A DNA stretch of 44,542 bases. It comes from Helicobacteraceae bacterium. GTDB lineage: Bacteria; Campylobacterota; Campylobacteria; Campylobacterales; Sulfurimonadaceae. The translations under genes and the position numbers were made by a program. Below the pieces are notes generated by a model. That model searched no databases and was not told the origin of the DNA. It saw nothing but the letters and a program-made list of their open reading frames with translations. Shown in pieces: positions 38,559-44,429 of this stretch. Where the stretch lies: the NCBI GenBank assembly GCA_027063225.1, contig JAMOSG010000020.1, forward strand, positions 1-44,542. The letters are read 5' to 3'. The first letter of the stretch is position 1; the number at the start of each line of letters is the position of its first letter.

Positions 38559-39527
38559 TTAAAAGTCTAAAGGGCTTTGGAGTTTTGGTTTGTTCATCTC
38601 ACTTACAACATGAGTGTATATCATAGTCGTTTCAACAGACTTATGACCCAAAAGTTCTTGAATACTCCGTAAATCTACTCCTGCTTGAAGTAGATGTGTA
38701 GCATACGAATGGCGAAATATATGGGAGGTTATACGTTTGTTTATATTTGCTTTTTGGGCTGCTACTTTTATATTTCTACCAAGAGTTTTAGGGTGAATAT
38801 GATGACGACGAATTACATTGGTTCTTGGGTCTTGTGAAAGATTTTTCATCGGAAAAAGATATTGCCATTTAAAATCAAATTTACTGTTTGGATATTTTTT
38901 TTCATAAGCAAATGGAATATATACACTTCCATAACCATCTTTTAAATCAACTATATGTTGCTCTTTTACTTTTTTGACTTGCACTAAAAGCTCCTCTTTT
39001 AACTTAAACGGTAGAGGTAAAGTTCTGTCTTTTAAAGATTTAGAATCCCAAATATAAATCTTATCAAATCCAAAATCTATATCTTTGATACGAATATTTA
39101 AAACCTCACTCATGCGAAGTCCACAACCATACATTAAAGAAACAATAAGCTTATAAATACCTCCAAGGTACGATAAAACTTTTTGAACTTCCTCTTTAGT
39201 TAAAACAACAGGTATATGTTTACGCTCTTGAGCTCTAAGTGCTTGAATGTTCCATTTAGTTGTATCAATACCTAAAACTTCTTTGTACAAAAATAGTATT
39301 GCTGCAAATGCTTGATTTTGTGTTGTAGGACTTACTTTTTTCTCTGTGGCTAAATGGGTTAAAAAAGCTTCTATCTCATTTTTTTGCATCTCAATAGGAT
39401 GTTTCTTGTTGTGAAAAAGTATATAATGCTTTATCCAATGAGTATATGTTTGCTCTGTTGAATAACTATAATGTTTAAAACGTATCTTATCACGAACAAT
39501 ATCAAGTAATTTTTTACGCTTTTGCAT
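38559..39527 (-). CDS. intI: Integron integrase (IntI family tyrosine recombinase, 322 aa)
   Basis: A site-specific recombinase that inserts and excises gene cassettes at attI and attC. The catalytic residues R138 ([10 protein letters not shown]), H269 and R272 ([13 protein letters not shown]), H295 (LLGHKSV) and Y304 (TMIYTHV) are intact. What marks it as IntI and not XerC/D or a phage integrase is the extra patch between the second and third boxes, residues about 198-245 ([14 protein letters not shown], then KWQYLFP and [15 protein letters not shown]). The frame is open to 39557, but the ATG at 39527 has a perfect AAGGAG 7 bases upstream, and the longer start lies inside the predicted -10 of its promoter. 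It points away from the cassette array, as in most integrons. Confidence 0.95.
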
Positions 39528-39534
39528 CACAAAA

Positions 39535-39540
39535 CTCCTT
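39535..39540 (-). promoter_or_regulatory. Ribosome binding site fixing the intI start
   Basis: AAGGAG on the minus strand, 7 bases before the ATG at 39527. It decides between this start and the longer open frame that begins at 39557. Confidence 0.8.
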
Positions 39541-39546
39541 AAATTT

Positions 39547-39570
39547 TTAAGGGACATTATGTCCTTTTAA
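39547..39570. repeat. Palindrome 1 (overlaps the intI -10 box)
   Basis: Two outward half-sites, GGGACAT and ATGTCC, meet with a single T between them and are flanked on both sides by TTAA. The half-site fits the pattern RTGTCYTTTTAAT that recurs in palindromes 2 and 3. Position over PintI suggests an operator. Confidence 0.6.
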
Positions 39571-39737: not shown

Positions 39738-39739
39738 AT

Positions 39740-39791
39740 CGATGTTTTGTAGTGTTTGTGATATAATGTTCCTTGAATAAATAGTTATAAC
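39740..39791 (+). other. attI: attI recombination site (approximate)
   Basis: The first cassette joins at GTTATAA (39784-39790), giving a crossover between G39784 and T39785, in agreement with the G/TT rule of all other junctions in the array. The left limit is a guess; attI sites generally span about 60 bases on the integrase side. The site lies directly downstream of Pc. Confidence 0.55.
39759..39767 (+). promoter_or_regulatory. Candidate cassette promoter Pc (extended -10)
   Basis: TGATATAAT contains TATAAT at 39762-39767 with the TG of an extended -10, which can replace a -35 box; none is evident. Transcription would begin near 39774, just before the attI crossover, and read into cassette 1. 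This is the position expected of Pc in an integron. Confidence 0.6.
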
Positions 39792-39806: not shown

Positions 39807-40160
39807 ATGAGATATACAAAAGAACAAGTTGACAGTACAGCAAAATTAATGGTTGAAGCATTGTATAGACAGAAAACTATAGATGAAGCTATGGAGCAAG
39901 TTTACAGTAAAGAAGTAAAAATTTATGAGCACTTTAAACAATATGTTGGAAACTTAAAAAAACAACTGGATGGTGGAACTCCTCATTTGGCTACACCATG
40001 TAATTGGGCAGAAGCACTATATAAGTATCTTAAAAGTGATGATAAATTGAAATTTTTAGATGCAATGGATAGACAAGTAGCCTATGATGCAAACTATGGT
40101 ACACCTAGTCATAAACTAAAAAAATGGATTAAAGAGCAAAGAAGTTATAACAAATCGTAG
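39807..40160 (+). CDS. Cassette 1: unknown protein (117 aa)
   Basis: A soluble, highly charged protein of unknown function with no signal peptide or membrane helix. The N-terminal MRYTKEQVDSTAKLMVEAL and C-terminal KLKKWIKEQRSYNKS regions look helical. AGAAGGAAG lies just before the ATG and belongs to the cassette. The TAG stop is inside the attC site that follows. As the first cassette it is closest to Pc and should be the best expressed. I do not recognise the family. Confidence 0.75.
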   Translation: MRYTKEQVDSTAKLMVEALYRQKTIDEAMEQVYSKEVKIYEHFKQYVGNLKKQLDGGTPHLATPCNWAEALYKYLKSDDKLKFLDAMDRQVAYDANYGTPSHKLKKWIKEQRSYNKS

Positions 40161-40280
40161 CAACAAAAATATGTTACCCTAGCCGAAAAAAGCCTCTAAA
40201 ACTAGTGATATTTAGCTACCATTATAGAAGTTAAAAGAGTACAAGAACAGGTAACATATTTTTGTACTCGACCGTTGTAC
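40145..40280 (+). other. attC1 of cassette 1 (about 136 bp, long AT-rich family)
   Basis: Left core TTATAAC (40145-40151), right core GTTGTAC (40274-40280). A 16-bp perfect stem lies between, ACAAAAATATGTTACC at 40163-40178 and its complement at 40250-40265, with a large central loop region. The same sequence, with small changes, recurs as attC4. The crossover falls after G40274. Confidence 0.85.
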
Positions 40281-40327
40281 TCTAAATAAGCTTTTCTAAA
40301 TCGGTGATAATTTAAGAAGGAAAAAAA

Positions 40328-41476
40328 ATGCCAGGTAAAACACAAAGAAAATATGTTGGTGAACTTATGAGATTTAATAAATCGCTAAAAGTACCATTAT
40401 ATAAAGTTAAGTCTGTGCTTCCATTAAATTATACTAAATATGACATTTTAAATTTATTTAAAGAATTATTTCCTTATGAATGGAATATTATAAAAGAACG
40501 CTATAAAATATATAAAGAAAAAGATGATTTTTTAAAAAAAGTAGGTAAAAAAATTAGATATAAGCCAACTTTGCCAGAATATTATTTATTTGAACTTCAA
40601 AAAGTAAAACATATACTGTCTCAAAGGCAAAAAAAATTACATGCAATAAATTTTAATGAAACAAATAGATTAGAGAAACTAGGTAAACTTGGTGAAGAAA
40701 CAAGAATACGAATGACTAAAATAAATGAAAAAATTGATTTAGCTAAAGAGTATATTCAAGATGTTGAACCCTCATATATAGATATATTTATACATGCTTA
40801 TCATAAAGATGGAATTTCACAAGATGGAAAAATGGAGATAGTTAAAGAATTGCAAAAATATGATTCTAGTAAAACTTTAGAGTTTTTTCAAAAATTAAAT
40901 GATAGTGAAAAAAATAGTCAAATTAGAATTGTTGCTTTTAAGCACCTTCAATCAATAGGAAAATATGTTAAATTACGAAAATCTTTTAAAGGTAAAAGAA
41001 AGACATATATGACAGAAAAAACTAATTTCGACATGAAACCTTTAGATTTATTTGAAAAAATAGAAAGTAATTTAGTTCAAAATAAAAAATCTTATGATAT
41101 TTTCATTTCACATAGTTTTAAAGATAATATATTAGTTAAGAAAATTATAAAAAAACTTAATAAATATAATTTAAATATATATTGTGACTGGATTAGTGAT
41201 AATGATTTTTTGAAAAGAACATATGCAGGTGACTATACAAAAGCTATTCTAAAAAGAAGAATAGAACAATCAAAAAAAGTACTATTTATTAAAACAAATC
41301 ATACTAATGATAAATCAAATAATTTCTATTCAGAATGGGTTAAGATGGAAATTTTACATGCTAAATCTATAAATAAGCCTATAGAACATATAGATTTTAC
41401 AAATAGTGATCAGAGAGAATTTCCATTGTATATATATAATGAAGAAATCAAGGAATTAGTTAATGGAAATAGATAG
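40328..41476 (+). CDS. Cassette 2: TIR-domain protein (382 aa)
   Basis: The C-terminal TIR domain spans about residues 255-355: SYDIFISHSFKDN is box 1, and the helix SEWVKMEILHAK carries the expected catalytic Glu (E341) of NAD-cleaving TIR proteins. Residues 1-250 are an unrecognised, mainly helical and strongly basic region with a probable coiled coil at about 85-145. No membrane helix is seen. AAGGAAAAAA precedes the ATG. The end overlaps the next gene by 14 bases. The three genes in this cassette form a tight operon, suggesting one system; anti-phage defence by NAD cleavage or signalling is the inference. Codon usage is very AT-rich. Confidence 0.85.
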   Translation: MPGKTQRKYVGELMRFNKSLKVPLYKVKSVLPLNYTKYDILNLFKELFPYEWNIIKERYKIYKEKDDFLKKVGKKIRYKPTLPEYYLFELQKVKHILSQRQKKLHAINFNETNRLEKLGKLGEETRIRMTKINEKIDLAKEYIQDVEPSYIDIFIHAYHKDGISQDGKMEIVKELQKYDSSKTLEFFQKLNDSEKNSQIRIVAFKHLQSIGKYVKLRKSFKGKRKTYMTEKTNFDMKPLDLFEKIESNLVQNKKSYDIFISHSFKDNILVKKIIKKLNKYNLNIYCDWISDNDFLKRTYAGDYTKAILKRRIEQSKKVLFIKTNHTNDKSNNFYSEWVKMEILHAKSINKPIEHIDFTNSDQREFPLYIYNEEIKELVNGNR

Positions 41477-41927
41477 AGAAAAAATATTAATTGAAGAAAT
41501 AAAAGTAGTTCAAGATATTATTAAAAGAATGGCAAGTAACTCTTTTAGTGTGAAAACATGGACTATTACACTTATAGTAGCTACATTGTTGTTTAAAGGG
41601 GCTAATAACCATATTTTCATTGCCTTTATACCTCTATTCGCTTTTTGGTTTTTAGACTCTTATTATTTACAACAAGAACGACTATTCAGGCAAGTACATA
41701 ATTGGATAGCAATATATAGACAAGATAATGATGATAAGCTTTTTAACATGAATCCCATGCAGTTTAAAGATAAAGTACAAACAGTTTTAAGAATAATGTT
41801 TTCAATAAGTACTTTACCTTTTTATGGAAGCATCTTTATTATGTTAATAAGTTATATCTTTATTGTATATTTTAAATATTTAGTCTTATTAAAAGATTGT
41901 TTATTAATTTATGTAGGAGTTAAGTAA
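41463..41927 (+). CDS. Cassette 2: small multi-pass membrane protein (154 aa)
   Basis: Hydrophobic helices are at about residues 31-46, 50-66 and 110-140, the last perhaps two helices. The motif FWFLDSYYLQQERLFR after the second helix, with an amphipathic N-terminal helix (1-25), resembles a family of small membrane proteins often found beside TIR genes; I recall them as RipA-like or SLATT-like, but I am not sure. In a TIR system it could be the membrane-damaging effector. It overlaps the TIR gene by 14 bases and the following gene by one (TAATG), so its synthesis is coupled to both. Confidence 0.75.
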   Translation: MEIDREKILIEEIKVVQDIIKRMASNSFSVKTWTITLIVATLLFKGANNHIFIAFIPLFAFWFLDSYYLQQERLFRQVHNWIAIYRQDNDDKLFNMNPMQFKDKVQTVLRIMFSISTLPFYGSIFIMLISYIFIVYFKYLVLLKDCLLIYVGVK

Positions 41928-42502
41928 TGGCAAAAAAAGTATTTTTCAGCTTTCATTATCAAGATGTTATAGACTTTAGAGCAAATGTTGTGAGAAATCA
42001 TGGGAATTTTAAATTAAATAAAGATGAAGCAGGTTTTTATGACTCTTCCATATGGGAAGAAGCTAAAAAAACAAGTGATTTAGCATTAAAAAGATTGATT
42101 AATAAAGGAATTCAAAATACATCAAATACTTGTGTTTTAGTTGGAACACATACATTTAAAAGAAGATGGGTTGATTATGAGATAATGAAAAGTTTTGAAA
42201 AAGGTAATTATATATTTGCCGTACATATTAATGGAATAAAATGTAAAAATCAAAAAACTAAGCCAAAAGGTAATAATCCTTTGTATTATCTAGGATACTC
42301 TTTTGATAAAACAGGAAAAAAATTATTATTACATAACTATATAGAAAATAAATGGATTCACTTTAAGGATTTAGATGGTTGGTCTGTTAAAGAAGTGCCT
42401 GAAAAAGATAGAAATAAAATTTTTAGACTTTCAACATTGTATCCAATTTATGATTGGATAGATGATAATGGATTTAGTGAGTTTAAAACTTGGGTTAAGT
42501 AA
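41927..42502 (+). CDS. Cassette 2: ThsB-like TIR protein (191 aa)
   Basis: A member of the TIR-like DUF1863/MTH538 family that includes ThsB, the sensor and NAD-derived signal producer in Thoeris. Visible features are the N-terminal KKVFFSFHYQDVIDFRAN (residues 3-20), SIWEEAKKTSDLALKRLI, TCVLVGTHTFKRRW and the following WVDYEI with the candidate catalytic E85. The length is like ThsB. No ThsA gene with SIR2 or Macro domain is present; the neighbour membrane protein might be the effector. It is translated from an ATG overlapping the stop of that gene. The 3' end is 3 bases from attC2. Confidence 0.88.
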   Translation: MAKKVFFSFHYQDVIDFRANVVRNHGNFKLNKDEAGFYDSSIWEEAKKTSDLALKRLINKGIQNTSNTCVLVGTHTFKRRWVDYEIMKSFEKGNYIFAVHINGIKCKNQKTKPKGNNPLYYLGYSFDKTGKKLLLHNYIENKWIHFKDLDGWSVKEVPEKDRNKIFRLSTLYPIYDWIDDNGFSEFKTWVK

Positions 42503-42505
42503 AGG

Positions 42506-42573
42506 GTACAACAAAACAGAGTATCCAATAAATTACCTAGCGGAAATTTATCGGCTATCTTCGACCGTTGCCT
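42506..42573 (+). other. attC2 of cassette 2 (68 bp, short family)
   Basis: Left core GTACAAC (42506-42512), the exact complement of the right core of attC1, as expected if both came with the same cassette. Right core GTTGCCT (42567-42573) belongs to the next cassette. The imperfect stem is 42521-42534 with 42545-42558, with eight-base spacers on each side. The same arms recur in attC6. Confidence 0.88.
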
Positions 42574-42722
42574 CGGACGCTTCGCTTACCGAGGCAACGG
42601 GGGCGCGGGCTGAACACCCGCTAGTTCCCCGGCGCAGCAGCGCCAGGCAACAAGCGGGAGGAGTGAGCAACAACATCTGAAACCAAACTTTCAAATGTCG
42701 TCGTCACTCACCCGCGCCCCCG
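42568..42722 (+). mobile_element. Cassette 3: 155-bp GC-rich attC-only cassette, copy 1
   Basis: A 63% GC unit in a very AT-rich region. It starts right after the crossover G at 42567 and ends at G42722 before TTATAT. Only 24 bases precede the attC core, so there is no room for a gene. The first bases form a 10-bp hairpin GTTGCCTCGG/CCGAGGCAAC around a 12-base loop, and the rest is a long attC. Identical in length and sequence to copy 2 at 43843-43997 by direct reading. Confidence 0.88.
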
Positions 42723-42728
42723 TTATAT
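42592..42728 (+). other. attC3, GC-rich, branched (137 bp)
   Basis: Left core AGGCAAC (42592-42598) is the exact complement of the right core GTTGCCT at 42567. Right core GTTATAT is 42722-42728. The outer stem pairs AACGGGGGCGCGGG (42596-42609) with CCCGCGCCCCCGTT (42711-42724), 14 bp without mismatch. Inside are two hairpin arms: 42617-42626 with 42649-42658 (ending in GGCGC-AGCA-GCGCC), and 42661-42676 with 42695-42709. The multi-arm shape is unusual for attC. Confidence 0.8.
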
Positions 42729-42820
42729 CCAAGCCACTTTAAAAGAGAAGTCTAAAAAAGAGTTTGAATAGGCCTATTTATAAAAGTAAATTAGGTAAAT
42801 TTAATTTTTGGAGGTCTCAA

Positions 42821-43336
42821 ATGAAGAGACTTATTTTTAGTGTAATATTAATTTTTATGATTATTACTATTTCTGGATGTGCTTCACATCAACATGCAGT
42901 AAATTTACAAAAATCTTTTGTACCTAAGGAAGATACAAAGGTAAAAGTTGCCGAAATAAGCAATAAGACAGGTTTTAATTATGAAATTAATATCGAACAA
43001 TTACTCAAAAGTGCTTTTGTAAAACAACTAAAAACTAATAATTTATTAGCTGATGAAAATTCTAAAAATATTATTATTTTAAATGTTGATATTATGAAAT
43101 ATTCAGAAGGTAGTGCTTTTAAAAGATGGCTTATGCCTGGTTGGGGTAAAACGGAGTTGACTATAACAGCAAAACTATATAGCAATAATCAAGAAATTGG
43201 AACTTTAAAAGCGACAAGAGAAATTATAGCTGGTGGTGGTTATACAATAGGTGCATGGGAATATGTATTTAATGATTTAGCTGAAGATGTTATTGAAGAT
43301 TTTAAAAAAGAATTTCAAAAACAACATAAGTTATAA
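42821..43336 (+). CDS. Cassette 4: DUF4410-like lipoprotein (171 aa)
   Basis: An exported protein with a lipoprotein signal peptide: residues 1-19 hydrophobic and lipobox ISGC at 17-20, so acylation at C20. The remaining part, with VDIMKYSEGSAFKRW, GKTELTITAKLYSNNQEIG and IAGGGYTIGAWEY, resembles DUF4410 lipoproteins. Function unknown; it should be membrane-anchored on the periplasmic side or in the outer membrane. GGAGG 6 bases before the ATG is an excellent ribosome binding site and decides against an earlier ATG at 42764. A second gene follows in the same cassette. Confidence 0.82.
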   Translation: MKRLIFSVILIFMIITISGCASHQHAVNLQKSFVPKEDTKVKVAEISNKTGFNYEINIEQLLKSAFVKQLKTNNLLADENSKNIIILNVDIMKYSEGSAFKRWLMPGWGKTELTITAKLYSNNQEIGTLKATREIIAGGGYTIGAWEYVFNDLAEDVIEDFKKEFQKQHKL

Positions 43337-43365
43337 ATAATATTTATATATAAAGGAAAAATAAA

Positions 43366-43710
43366 ATGAAGTATTTTTTTAAAGGAATATTATTATTGTT
43401 TATATCAATTTCTACTAATGCAGATTGTATATCTGCATTAGAAAATAGTATAGGTTGGACAATTATAGATAGTAAAATTATTGATGGATATATAAAAGAA
43501 AATGGTAAAAAAGAAGATTCTTTTGAAGGATGTAATTATAATAGGGTTATCTATTTTAGAGATGGAACAACAGTCACTTGTAATTCGTATGGATATCAAT
43601 ATGCTTATGCCCCTACGGCAATTATACTAGGTAAATCAATTTTATATAAAGGTAAAAAAATTACTTTATTTAAAATGATTGTTGAAGATGAGGAATACAA
43701 TATACAATAA
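43366..43710 (+). CDS. Cassette 4: small exported protein (114 aa)
   Basis: A signal peptide is likely (residues 1-19, cleavage after TNA). The mature part has four Cys residues, including CISAL and EGCNYNRVIYFRDGTTVTC, suggesting disulphides in the periplasm. No family is recognised. It is 29 bases downstream of the lipoprotein gene, with AAAGGAAAA before the ATG, so they form a two-gene cassette. Confidence 0.7.
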   Translation: MKYFFKGILLLFISISTNADCISALENSIGWTIIDSKIIDGYIKENGKKEDSFEGCNYNRVIYFRDGTTVTCNSYGYQYAYAPTAIILGKSILYKGKKITLFKMIVEDEEYNIQ

Positions 43711-43713
43711 AAG

Positions 43714-43848
43714 ATATAACAAATCGTAGCACAAAAATATGTTACCACAGCCGAAAAAAGTTTTGAAAACTAGAGATATTTAGCTATCATTGTAAAACAC
43801 AAAAAAGTACAAGAACTGGTAACATATTTTTGTACTCAACCGTTGCCT
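43714..43848 (+). other. attC4 of cassette 4 (135 bp, long AT-rich family)
   Basis: Left core ATATAAC (43714-43720), right core GTTGCCT (43842-43848). It is a close relative of attC1: the same AAATCGTAGC after the left core, the stem ACAAAAATATGTTACC with its complement, and similar inner sequence. It differs by the loss of one A after GTAGC and by substitutions in the loop. Crossover after G43842. Confidence 0.83.
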
Positions 43849-43997
43849 CGGACGCTTCGCTTACCGAGGCAACGGGGGCGCGGGCTGAACACCCGCTAGT
43901 TCCCCGGCGCAGCAGCGCCAGGCAACAAGCGGGAGGAGTGAGCAACAACATCTGAAACCAAACTTTCAAATGTCGTCGTCACTCACCCGCGCCCCCG
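43843..43997 (+). mobile_element. Cassette 5: 155-bp GC-rich attC-only cassette, copy 2
   Basis: Identical to copy 1 over all 155 bases by direct reading, offset by exactly 1275. It follows a different attC (long family) and is followed by a different cassette, so the repeat is limited to the cassette itself. This supports independent insertion of the same unit by integrase, or a duplication within the array. Confidence 0.88.
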
Positions 43998-44003
43998 TTA
44001 TCA
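43867..44003 (+). other. attC5, GC-rich, branched (137 bp)
   Basis: Left core AGGCAAC (43867-43873), right core GTTATCA (43997-44003). Same sequence and branched structure as attC3 except for the last few bases, which belong to the next cassette. Confidence 0.8.
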
Positions 44004-44022
44004 TACGCAAGGAATACATATT

Positions 44023-44364
44023 ATGGAAGCAGAAGAAAAAGCAAAGTTTTTTAGTGAAAAATTTCTAGATAATAGTAAAGTTACTTTTGTAAAAGAAGAT
44101 TTTGAGGATAGAAGATTAAATCCAAGAGGTTGGCAATATAAAAGATATGGTAATTCAACAAAAGGTGAAGAAAAGTTAAAATTTTGTCGTGAGAATATGA
44201 AACTATTAGAGGACAATGGAAAGTGTGCTAGAAATGATAGTGATCTTCGATATTATGAAGATTTAATATTTATTGATGAAAATAATGTAGTAGAAGTTAC
44301 TACAAGTCCAAGTAGAAGTGGAAATACTTGTTCTTACTCATTCTTCACAGTAACAAAAGTATGA
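44023..44364 (+). CDS. Cassette 6: unknown protein (113 aa)
   Basis: A small soluble protein rich in charged residues. The first 20 residues are acidic/helical (MEAEEKAKFFSEKFLDNSKV), the middle has NPRGWQYKRYG, and the end VVEVTTSPSRSGNTCSYSFF looks beta-rich. No signal peptide and no known family. AAGGAA lies 10 bases before the ATG. The TGA stop overlaps the attC left core. Confidence 0.7.
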   Translation: MEAEEKAKFFSEKFLDNSKVTFVKEDFEDRRLNPRGWQYKRYGNSTKGEEKLKFCRENMKLLEDNGKCARNDSDLRYYEDLIFIDENNVVEVTTSPSRSGNTCSYSFFTVTKV

Positions 44365-44429
44365 TAACAAAACAGAGTAGCCAATAAGTACCCTAGCGGG
44401 AACTTATTGGCTATCTTCAATCGTTAGCA
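44362..44429 (+). other. attC6 of cassette 6 (68 bp, short family)
   Basis: Left core TGATAAC (44362-44368), exact complement of the right core GTTATCA of attC5. Right core GTTAGCA (44423-44429). A 12-bp stem TAGCCAATAAGT with its complement and a CCC-TAGC-GGG tip are visible. It is a near-copy of attC2. Confidence 0.87.

Follow-up and report, generated by a model that had tools for sequence, protein, structure and literature searches.

A gene-free, attC-only cassette with a self-complementary body recurs in integron arrays of Campylobacterales

Integron cassettes are usually viewed as gene carriers. Gene-less cassettes are also known, some with promoters (PMC11014356) and some with small RNAs (reviewed in PMC8876359). 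Those of Vibrio, Treponema and metagenomes (PMC11014356, PMC8876359) resemble the unit described here in that they are gene-free, end in a 3′ attC, lie in arrays and are bounded at G/TT, where the slash marks the crossover. Their bodies, however, are credited with promoters or small RNAs, whereas the body of our unit is made of arms complementary to its attC and to its own end, and its sequence family is spread across an order and has identical copies within genomes. The VCR of V. cholerae, a large attC (PMC2727003), likewise has a favoured bottom-strand fold, AAC/GTT ends and a branched terminal structure; in contrast, the unit has a second arm complementary to its R-L spacer and carries R″ twice, and its site makes up a gene-free cassette by itself. 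MITEs and other helper-dependent hitchhikers (PMC10969869, PMC11389934) are also short, palindromic, multi-copy and in need of a helper enzyme. Here, the presumed helper is the integron integrase, and the unit differs from MITEs in lacking terminal inverted repeats and target duplication and in that complete units are confined to attI/attC junctions. In the open literature, within limited coverage, we did not come across attC-only cassettes that have self-complementary bodies and span an order, and the titles and abstracts of papers on integrons together with Campylobacterota, Epsilonproteobacteria or Sulfurimonas do not mention such units.

The window (the whole stretch analysed, 44,542 nucleotides of contig JAMOSG010000020.1 from a Helicobacteraceae bacterium) contains an integron whose cassette array lies on the + strand and reaches the window end, past 44423. 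Its parts are as follows.

38559–39557, − strand: integron integrase gene intI (TIGR02249, E 3e-123)
39738–39786, + strand: attI with TATAAT, crossover G39784/T39785
39785–40274, + strand: first cassette, with a gene at 39807–40160 and a long attC; its own R′ and R″ are both GTTATAAC
40275–42567, + strand: second cassette; TIR/Thoeris-like genes, then a 60-nt attC that abuts copy 1
42568–42722, + strand: gene-free cassette, copy 1; 155 bp, G/TT to G/TT
42723–43842, + strand: cassette between the copies, with a DUF4410 gene, a small ORF and a long attC
43843–43997, + strand: gene-free cassette, copy 2, identical to copy 1; 155 bp, G/TT to G/TT
43998–44423, + strand: cassette after copy 2, with a 113-aa ORF and a 60-nt attC

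The original prediction singled out 42568–42722 and 43843–43997 as identical, GC-rich, gene-free cassettes bounded at integrase crossover points, and this description holds. The two are 100% identical over 155 bp, both are flanked G/TT...G/TT, and their GC content is 63.2%, whereas the window as a whole has 33.2%. No protein is encoded, the longest closed reading frame within the unit being about 31 aa. The flanks do differ, as claimed: beyond the unit, the match is limited to short attC-type ends, and a repeat search of the window stretches it to 166 nt at 99%. The assembly has a third identical 155-bp copy, on contig C35. That contig (L001, 573–953) also has a 98% copy of the intI–attI intergenic region of the window, without intI. 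The Thoeris-like genes of the cassette before copy 1 (40328–42502) match ThsB/TIR (PADLOC E 9e-122), PDC-M50A (9e-78) and PDC-M50B/ThsB (5e-55). The gene of the cassette after copy 2 was not found in any other sampled genome, hence there is no empty-site comparison for it.

It had been suggested that the unit contains little more than an attC. The attC is indeed its main content, but about half of the unit consists of arms that are not attC, and these can pair with the attC as well as with the cassette's own 5′ end. In copy 1, the elements are arranged as follows.

42567–42598, + strand: 5′ hairpin of the own R′ end GTTGCCTCGG and the outer R″ CCGAGGCAAC; predicted fold, with compensatory changes in helix 4
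42596–42609, + strand: outer arm AACGGGGGCGCGGG, pairing with 42711–42724 (the R′-side spacer of the attC); predicted fold, helix 1, 99.8% paired
42617–42658, + strand: stem 2, in which the left arm pairs with the inner R″ plus spacer; helix 3 pairing
42645–42724, + strand: inner attC-like site, with R″ AGGCAAC, spacer, long L″/L′ stem and R′ GTT; predicted fold and attC detector
42711–42724, + strand: 3′ arm CCCGCGCCCCCGTT, crossover G42722/T42723; predicted fold

The 3′ 78 nt, from the inner R″ to the crossover, are laid out like the ordinary attCs of the array (AAC, 8-nt spacer, GGAG..., stem, ...CTCA, spacer, GTT), with the long L″/L′ stem (stem 3) at 42661–42709. The unit has the AAC...GTT boxes, the L″/L′ stem and the favoured bottom-strand fold of a canonical attC, and an attC detector tuned on neighbouring sites (sensitivity 24/41 known sites) calls its 3′ end at 42722 and 43997. 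The 5′ 77 nt form arms that can pair with both spacers of the attC and with the R′ end of the cassette itself. The latter (GTTGCCT, top strand) pairs with the outer R″ (AGGCAAC, 42592–42598) in a hairpin that copy 2 has at 43842–43873, while the right arm of stem 2 is the inner R″ (42645–42651) plus its spacer. Because these arms match both attC spacers and the own R′, the whole unit is predicted to fold into a hairpin and a three-way junction. In the predicted folds, the central spacer is paired in the most stable outer form and partly paired in the inner one, and the long stem has a single bulge, a candidate for the extrahelical bases (a conserved G and T) of the R″-L″ arm.

The strand conserved as a fold is the bottom strand, like attC. 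Among 38 distinct members, the bottom-strand DNA fold is the more stable in all 38, by 10.7 kcal/mol on average. Consensus bottom-strand pairs include 165 G.T cells versus 5 A.C; when the structure is derived from the top strand, the top still shows 3 G.T versus 31 A.C. Sense-strand pairing is spoilt by A.C mismatches in 22 columns, where the bottom strand keeps G.T, and the ordinary attCs adjoining units show the same strand lean (27 versus 4). Overall, 97.9% of cells are paired and 27 pairs have double changes, a level reached in 0/500 shuffles, a count that is not a probability, the sequences being related. When partners are slid by 1–3 columns, only 40–45% of cells pair. For the unit itself, the bottom-strand fold has z = −9.1, with 0/200 shuffles equally good; with this fold and with relatives across the genus, the unit is not a chance feature. 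The strand bias agrees with a substrate like that of attC, the bottom strand in single-stranded form. A structured RNA had also been proposed; for the sense strand, the pairing evidence points away from this idea and favours the bottom strand, and because of the A.C mismatches we reject sense-strand RNA as the selected fold.

Beyond the window, the unit is a discrete entity whose ends are G/TT crossover points and which lies behind attI or diverse attCs. It spans G/TT to G/TT in 58–61 distinct contexts, oriented like the array. Since the GTT ends are part of the extraction rule, the informative evidence is the drop in information outside the unit: the right flank holds 1.3 bits at the third base and less than 0.65 bit from the fourth base after the cut, and left flanks are either attC ends (NNCG) or a single attI type (TTGAATAAATAG). 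About eight comparisons set a downstream cassette that follows a unit beside the same cassette, or a homologue, that has none before it; the junction is at the same G/TT, and in the unit-free case the cassette is joined to an ordinary attC or to attI. The cleanest of these, within genome G067, is identical at 186/186 positions; the rest are between genomes, at 72–96% identity. Of the 4 variable bases of the inner R″, at least 3 agree with the unit's own R′ in 95/101 contexts and with the R′ of the downstream neighbour in just 17/101, which is the expected look of a circularising cassette. A match to the outer R″ was a search criterion and is not counted as cassette evidence. Every complete unit observed lay at a cassette junction. 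No parent transposon was found, nor were terminal inverted repeats with target duplication; the unit ends share at most GTT.

The unit lies directly at attI in 17/58 contexts, the others being behind diverse attCs. At least 28/101 readable Sulfurimonas attI sites begin with a unit of this class, a raw count with no interior-array baseline. It comes from an attI-motif search from which one false positive was removed by eye, and it misses a few further sites known to carry units. Sulfurimonas genomes have several attI-like sites (about 107 sites in 72/135 genomes, reversed control 0; also at L014 and L029), and 71/104 of these have no intI in the 700 bp upstream, some contigs ending early.

BLAST relatives of the unit occur in 29/100 genomes of the genus, and the named matches are mostly Sulfurimonas, including S. 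indica strain NW8N, whose copy lies at attI. With a covariance model of the bottom strand, the family is found in 44/228 genomes of its bacterial family (6/18 genera) and in 25/397 genomes sampled over the phylum Campylobacterota (11/68 genera); these 25 belong to five families of one order, Campylobacterales. Judged by these sequence relatives, the unit's family is native to Campylobacterales. Units also turn up in bins named Gracilibacteria and Peptostreptococcaceae (JAMOQG, JAQVDN and JALUWO contigs; L040, L041, L046, L058, L067). These are probably mis-binned from Sulfurimonas, because one sequence is identical to a Sulfurimonas copy and the attI is of Sulfurimonas type. The foreign origin put forward in the original prediction did not survive: every member found comes from AT-rich Campylobacterota or from contigs binned close to them, which speaks against a GC-rich foreign source. 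An IMG/VR pattern scan and BLAST of plasmid and phage records gave no match, and the GC lies in the paired arms. Rfam has no family matching the unit. The prediction that the units are nomadic fared better, since they occur independently in many contexts; copies are identical or nearly so inside genomes and differ between genomes.

How the units relate to the integrase is less simple. In the genus, IntI scores over the cut-off in 17/29 unit-bearing genomes versus 21/71 others (p 0.007) or, with fragments included, in 23/29 versus 31/71 (p 0.001), p values that treat genomes as independent; beyond the genus, IntI is present in most unit-bearing genomes. However, two complete genomes, G067 with 13 unit matches and G062 with 2, have no IntI above Xer-level scores, and the same is true of several near-complete unit-bearing genomes. 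This implies that copies outlast the enzyme or that another enzyme serves them, and movement "through integrase alone", as originally predicted, is an inference.

Scanning the sampled loci for the pattern of an own-end hairpin plus an outer arm returned 119 contexts, versus 3 control matches. The main family is mostly 148–157 bp. A second family of 183–184 bp (GTTGTACGTTCC..., outer arm AACGGCGAAGCTGAGC) and a third of 174–176 bp (GTTATCGGCTCG..., outer arm AACGGCAGTGCTGAGC) are unrelated to it in sequence and share its anatomy and bottom-strand bias. One chimera (L015) has a 5′ hairpin from one family and a body from another. Deletion derivatives of 39–110 bp retain both ends, and among the small forms are minis of 58–67 bp, one of which (61 bp) has two identical copies in genome G206, one of them at attI. 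At L118, identical 61-bp mini units (781–844 and 1725–1788) stand either side of one gene cassette, whose homologue in G067 likewise has a unit before it. The 5′ hairpin is retained in 148/154 cores, which speaks against the view that gene cassettes commonly use the core as their attC; at L052, the core apparently serves one gene cassette as attC. At L122 (2585–2738), a toxin-antitoxin-like gene pair, named by eye, is fused to the 3′ part of a unit, which forms its attC-like end. At L051 (1349–2374), a gene assigned by eye as IS110-type transposase-like abuts a unit lacking the 5′ hairpin; it is possibly an insertion sequence that targets attC.

We think it likely that the unit is a non-autonomous, attC-only mobile cassette, moved by IntI as folded bottom-strand DNA. 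The bottom strand, when single-stranded, would fold; IntI would cut at the 3′ R′ box; and the unit would leave as a 155-nt circle or join attI or another attC. Replication of the untouched top strand would leave a copy behind, and because only one strand is recombined, we propose that units multiply. The 5′ arms are predicted to yield a far more stable three-way-junction fold, whose role, by these models, is probably one of two: helping the site to fold faster, or competing with the inner attC as a lock. Pairing of the central spacer costs VCR 27-fold in recombination (PMC2727003), which by analogy makes a lock plausible: since the outer fold pairs that spacer, IntI may recombine the most stable form poorly. 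Self-spreading is the most likely reason for the unit's persistence, and a benefit to the host is possible. A bolder reading, against which we lean somewhat, is that of a whole class of integron parasites: "self-locking" attC-only cassettes in at least three families (mostly 148–157, 174–176 and 183–184 bp), with one anatomy, spread by IntI and preferring attI across Campylobacterales, and with an alternative fold that would switch recombination on and off.

It is also possible, if unlikely, that these are cassettes useful to the host, which when placed at attI would sit at the 5′ end of array transcripts and act as a structured leader, mRNA stabiliser, insulator or antisense RNA. The first place held at 28/101 attI sites speaks for this, as does the TATAAT about 20 nt before the attI junction, which would place transcript starts close to the unit. 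For the sense RNA, a very stable fold is predicted (−89 kcal/mol), and there is precedent in the promoter activity of Vibrio and Treponema gene-less cassettes and in a Xanthomonas cassette sRNA (PMC11014356, PMC8876359). Yet the same 22 columns in which the bottom strand keeps G.T have A.C mismatches in the sense strand, the Rfam search found nothing, promoter-like matches are at chance level with no excess over shuffles, and the majority of copies lie away from attI. An antisense RNA would be compatible with the strand bias.

Far less probable, in our judgement, is a MITE-like element put into attI/attC junctions not by IntI but by a transposase such as the single-strand IS200/IS605 enzymes. 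In its favour, the unit is small, palindromic, multi-copy and gene-free and persists in several copies in genomes without IntI, and insertion at G/TT without longer duplication would look the same. But the orientation is always that of cassettes, a functional-looking attC is confined to the 3′ end, the agreement of the inner R″ with the unit's own 5′ end is a cassette trait, complete units keep to cassette junctions, and the single IS110-like gene at one locus is the only linked transposase. We give the least credence of all to passive debris, whether decayed gene cassettes or a standard attC of the lineage multiplied by homologous recombination. The 39–110 bp derivatives and the gene cassette at L052 that appears to use the core as attC would fit; the near-universal 5′ hairpin (148/154 cores), the covarying pairs with their compensatory changes and the one anatomy in three sequence families do not, and a design kept across five bacterial families is not expected of debris.

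If the reading as an IntI-moved, attC-only cassette is true, integrons have hitchhikers of their own, a widespread family containing recombination-site DNA only. The full, mini (58–67 bp) and chimeric forms offer a natural series of attC folds for testing what IntI needs. For the genus, such hitchhikers would, if true, explain why a sizeable share of attI sites have no gene in first place.
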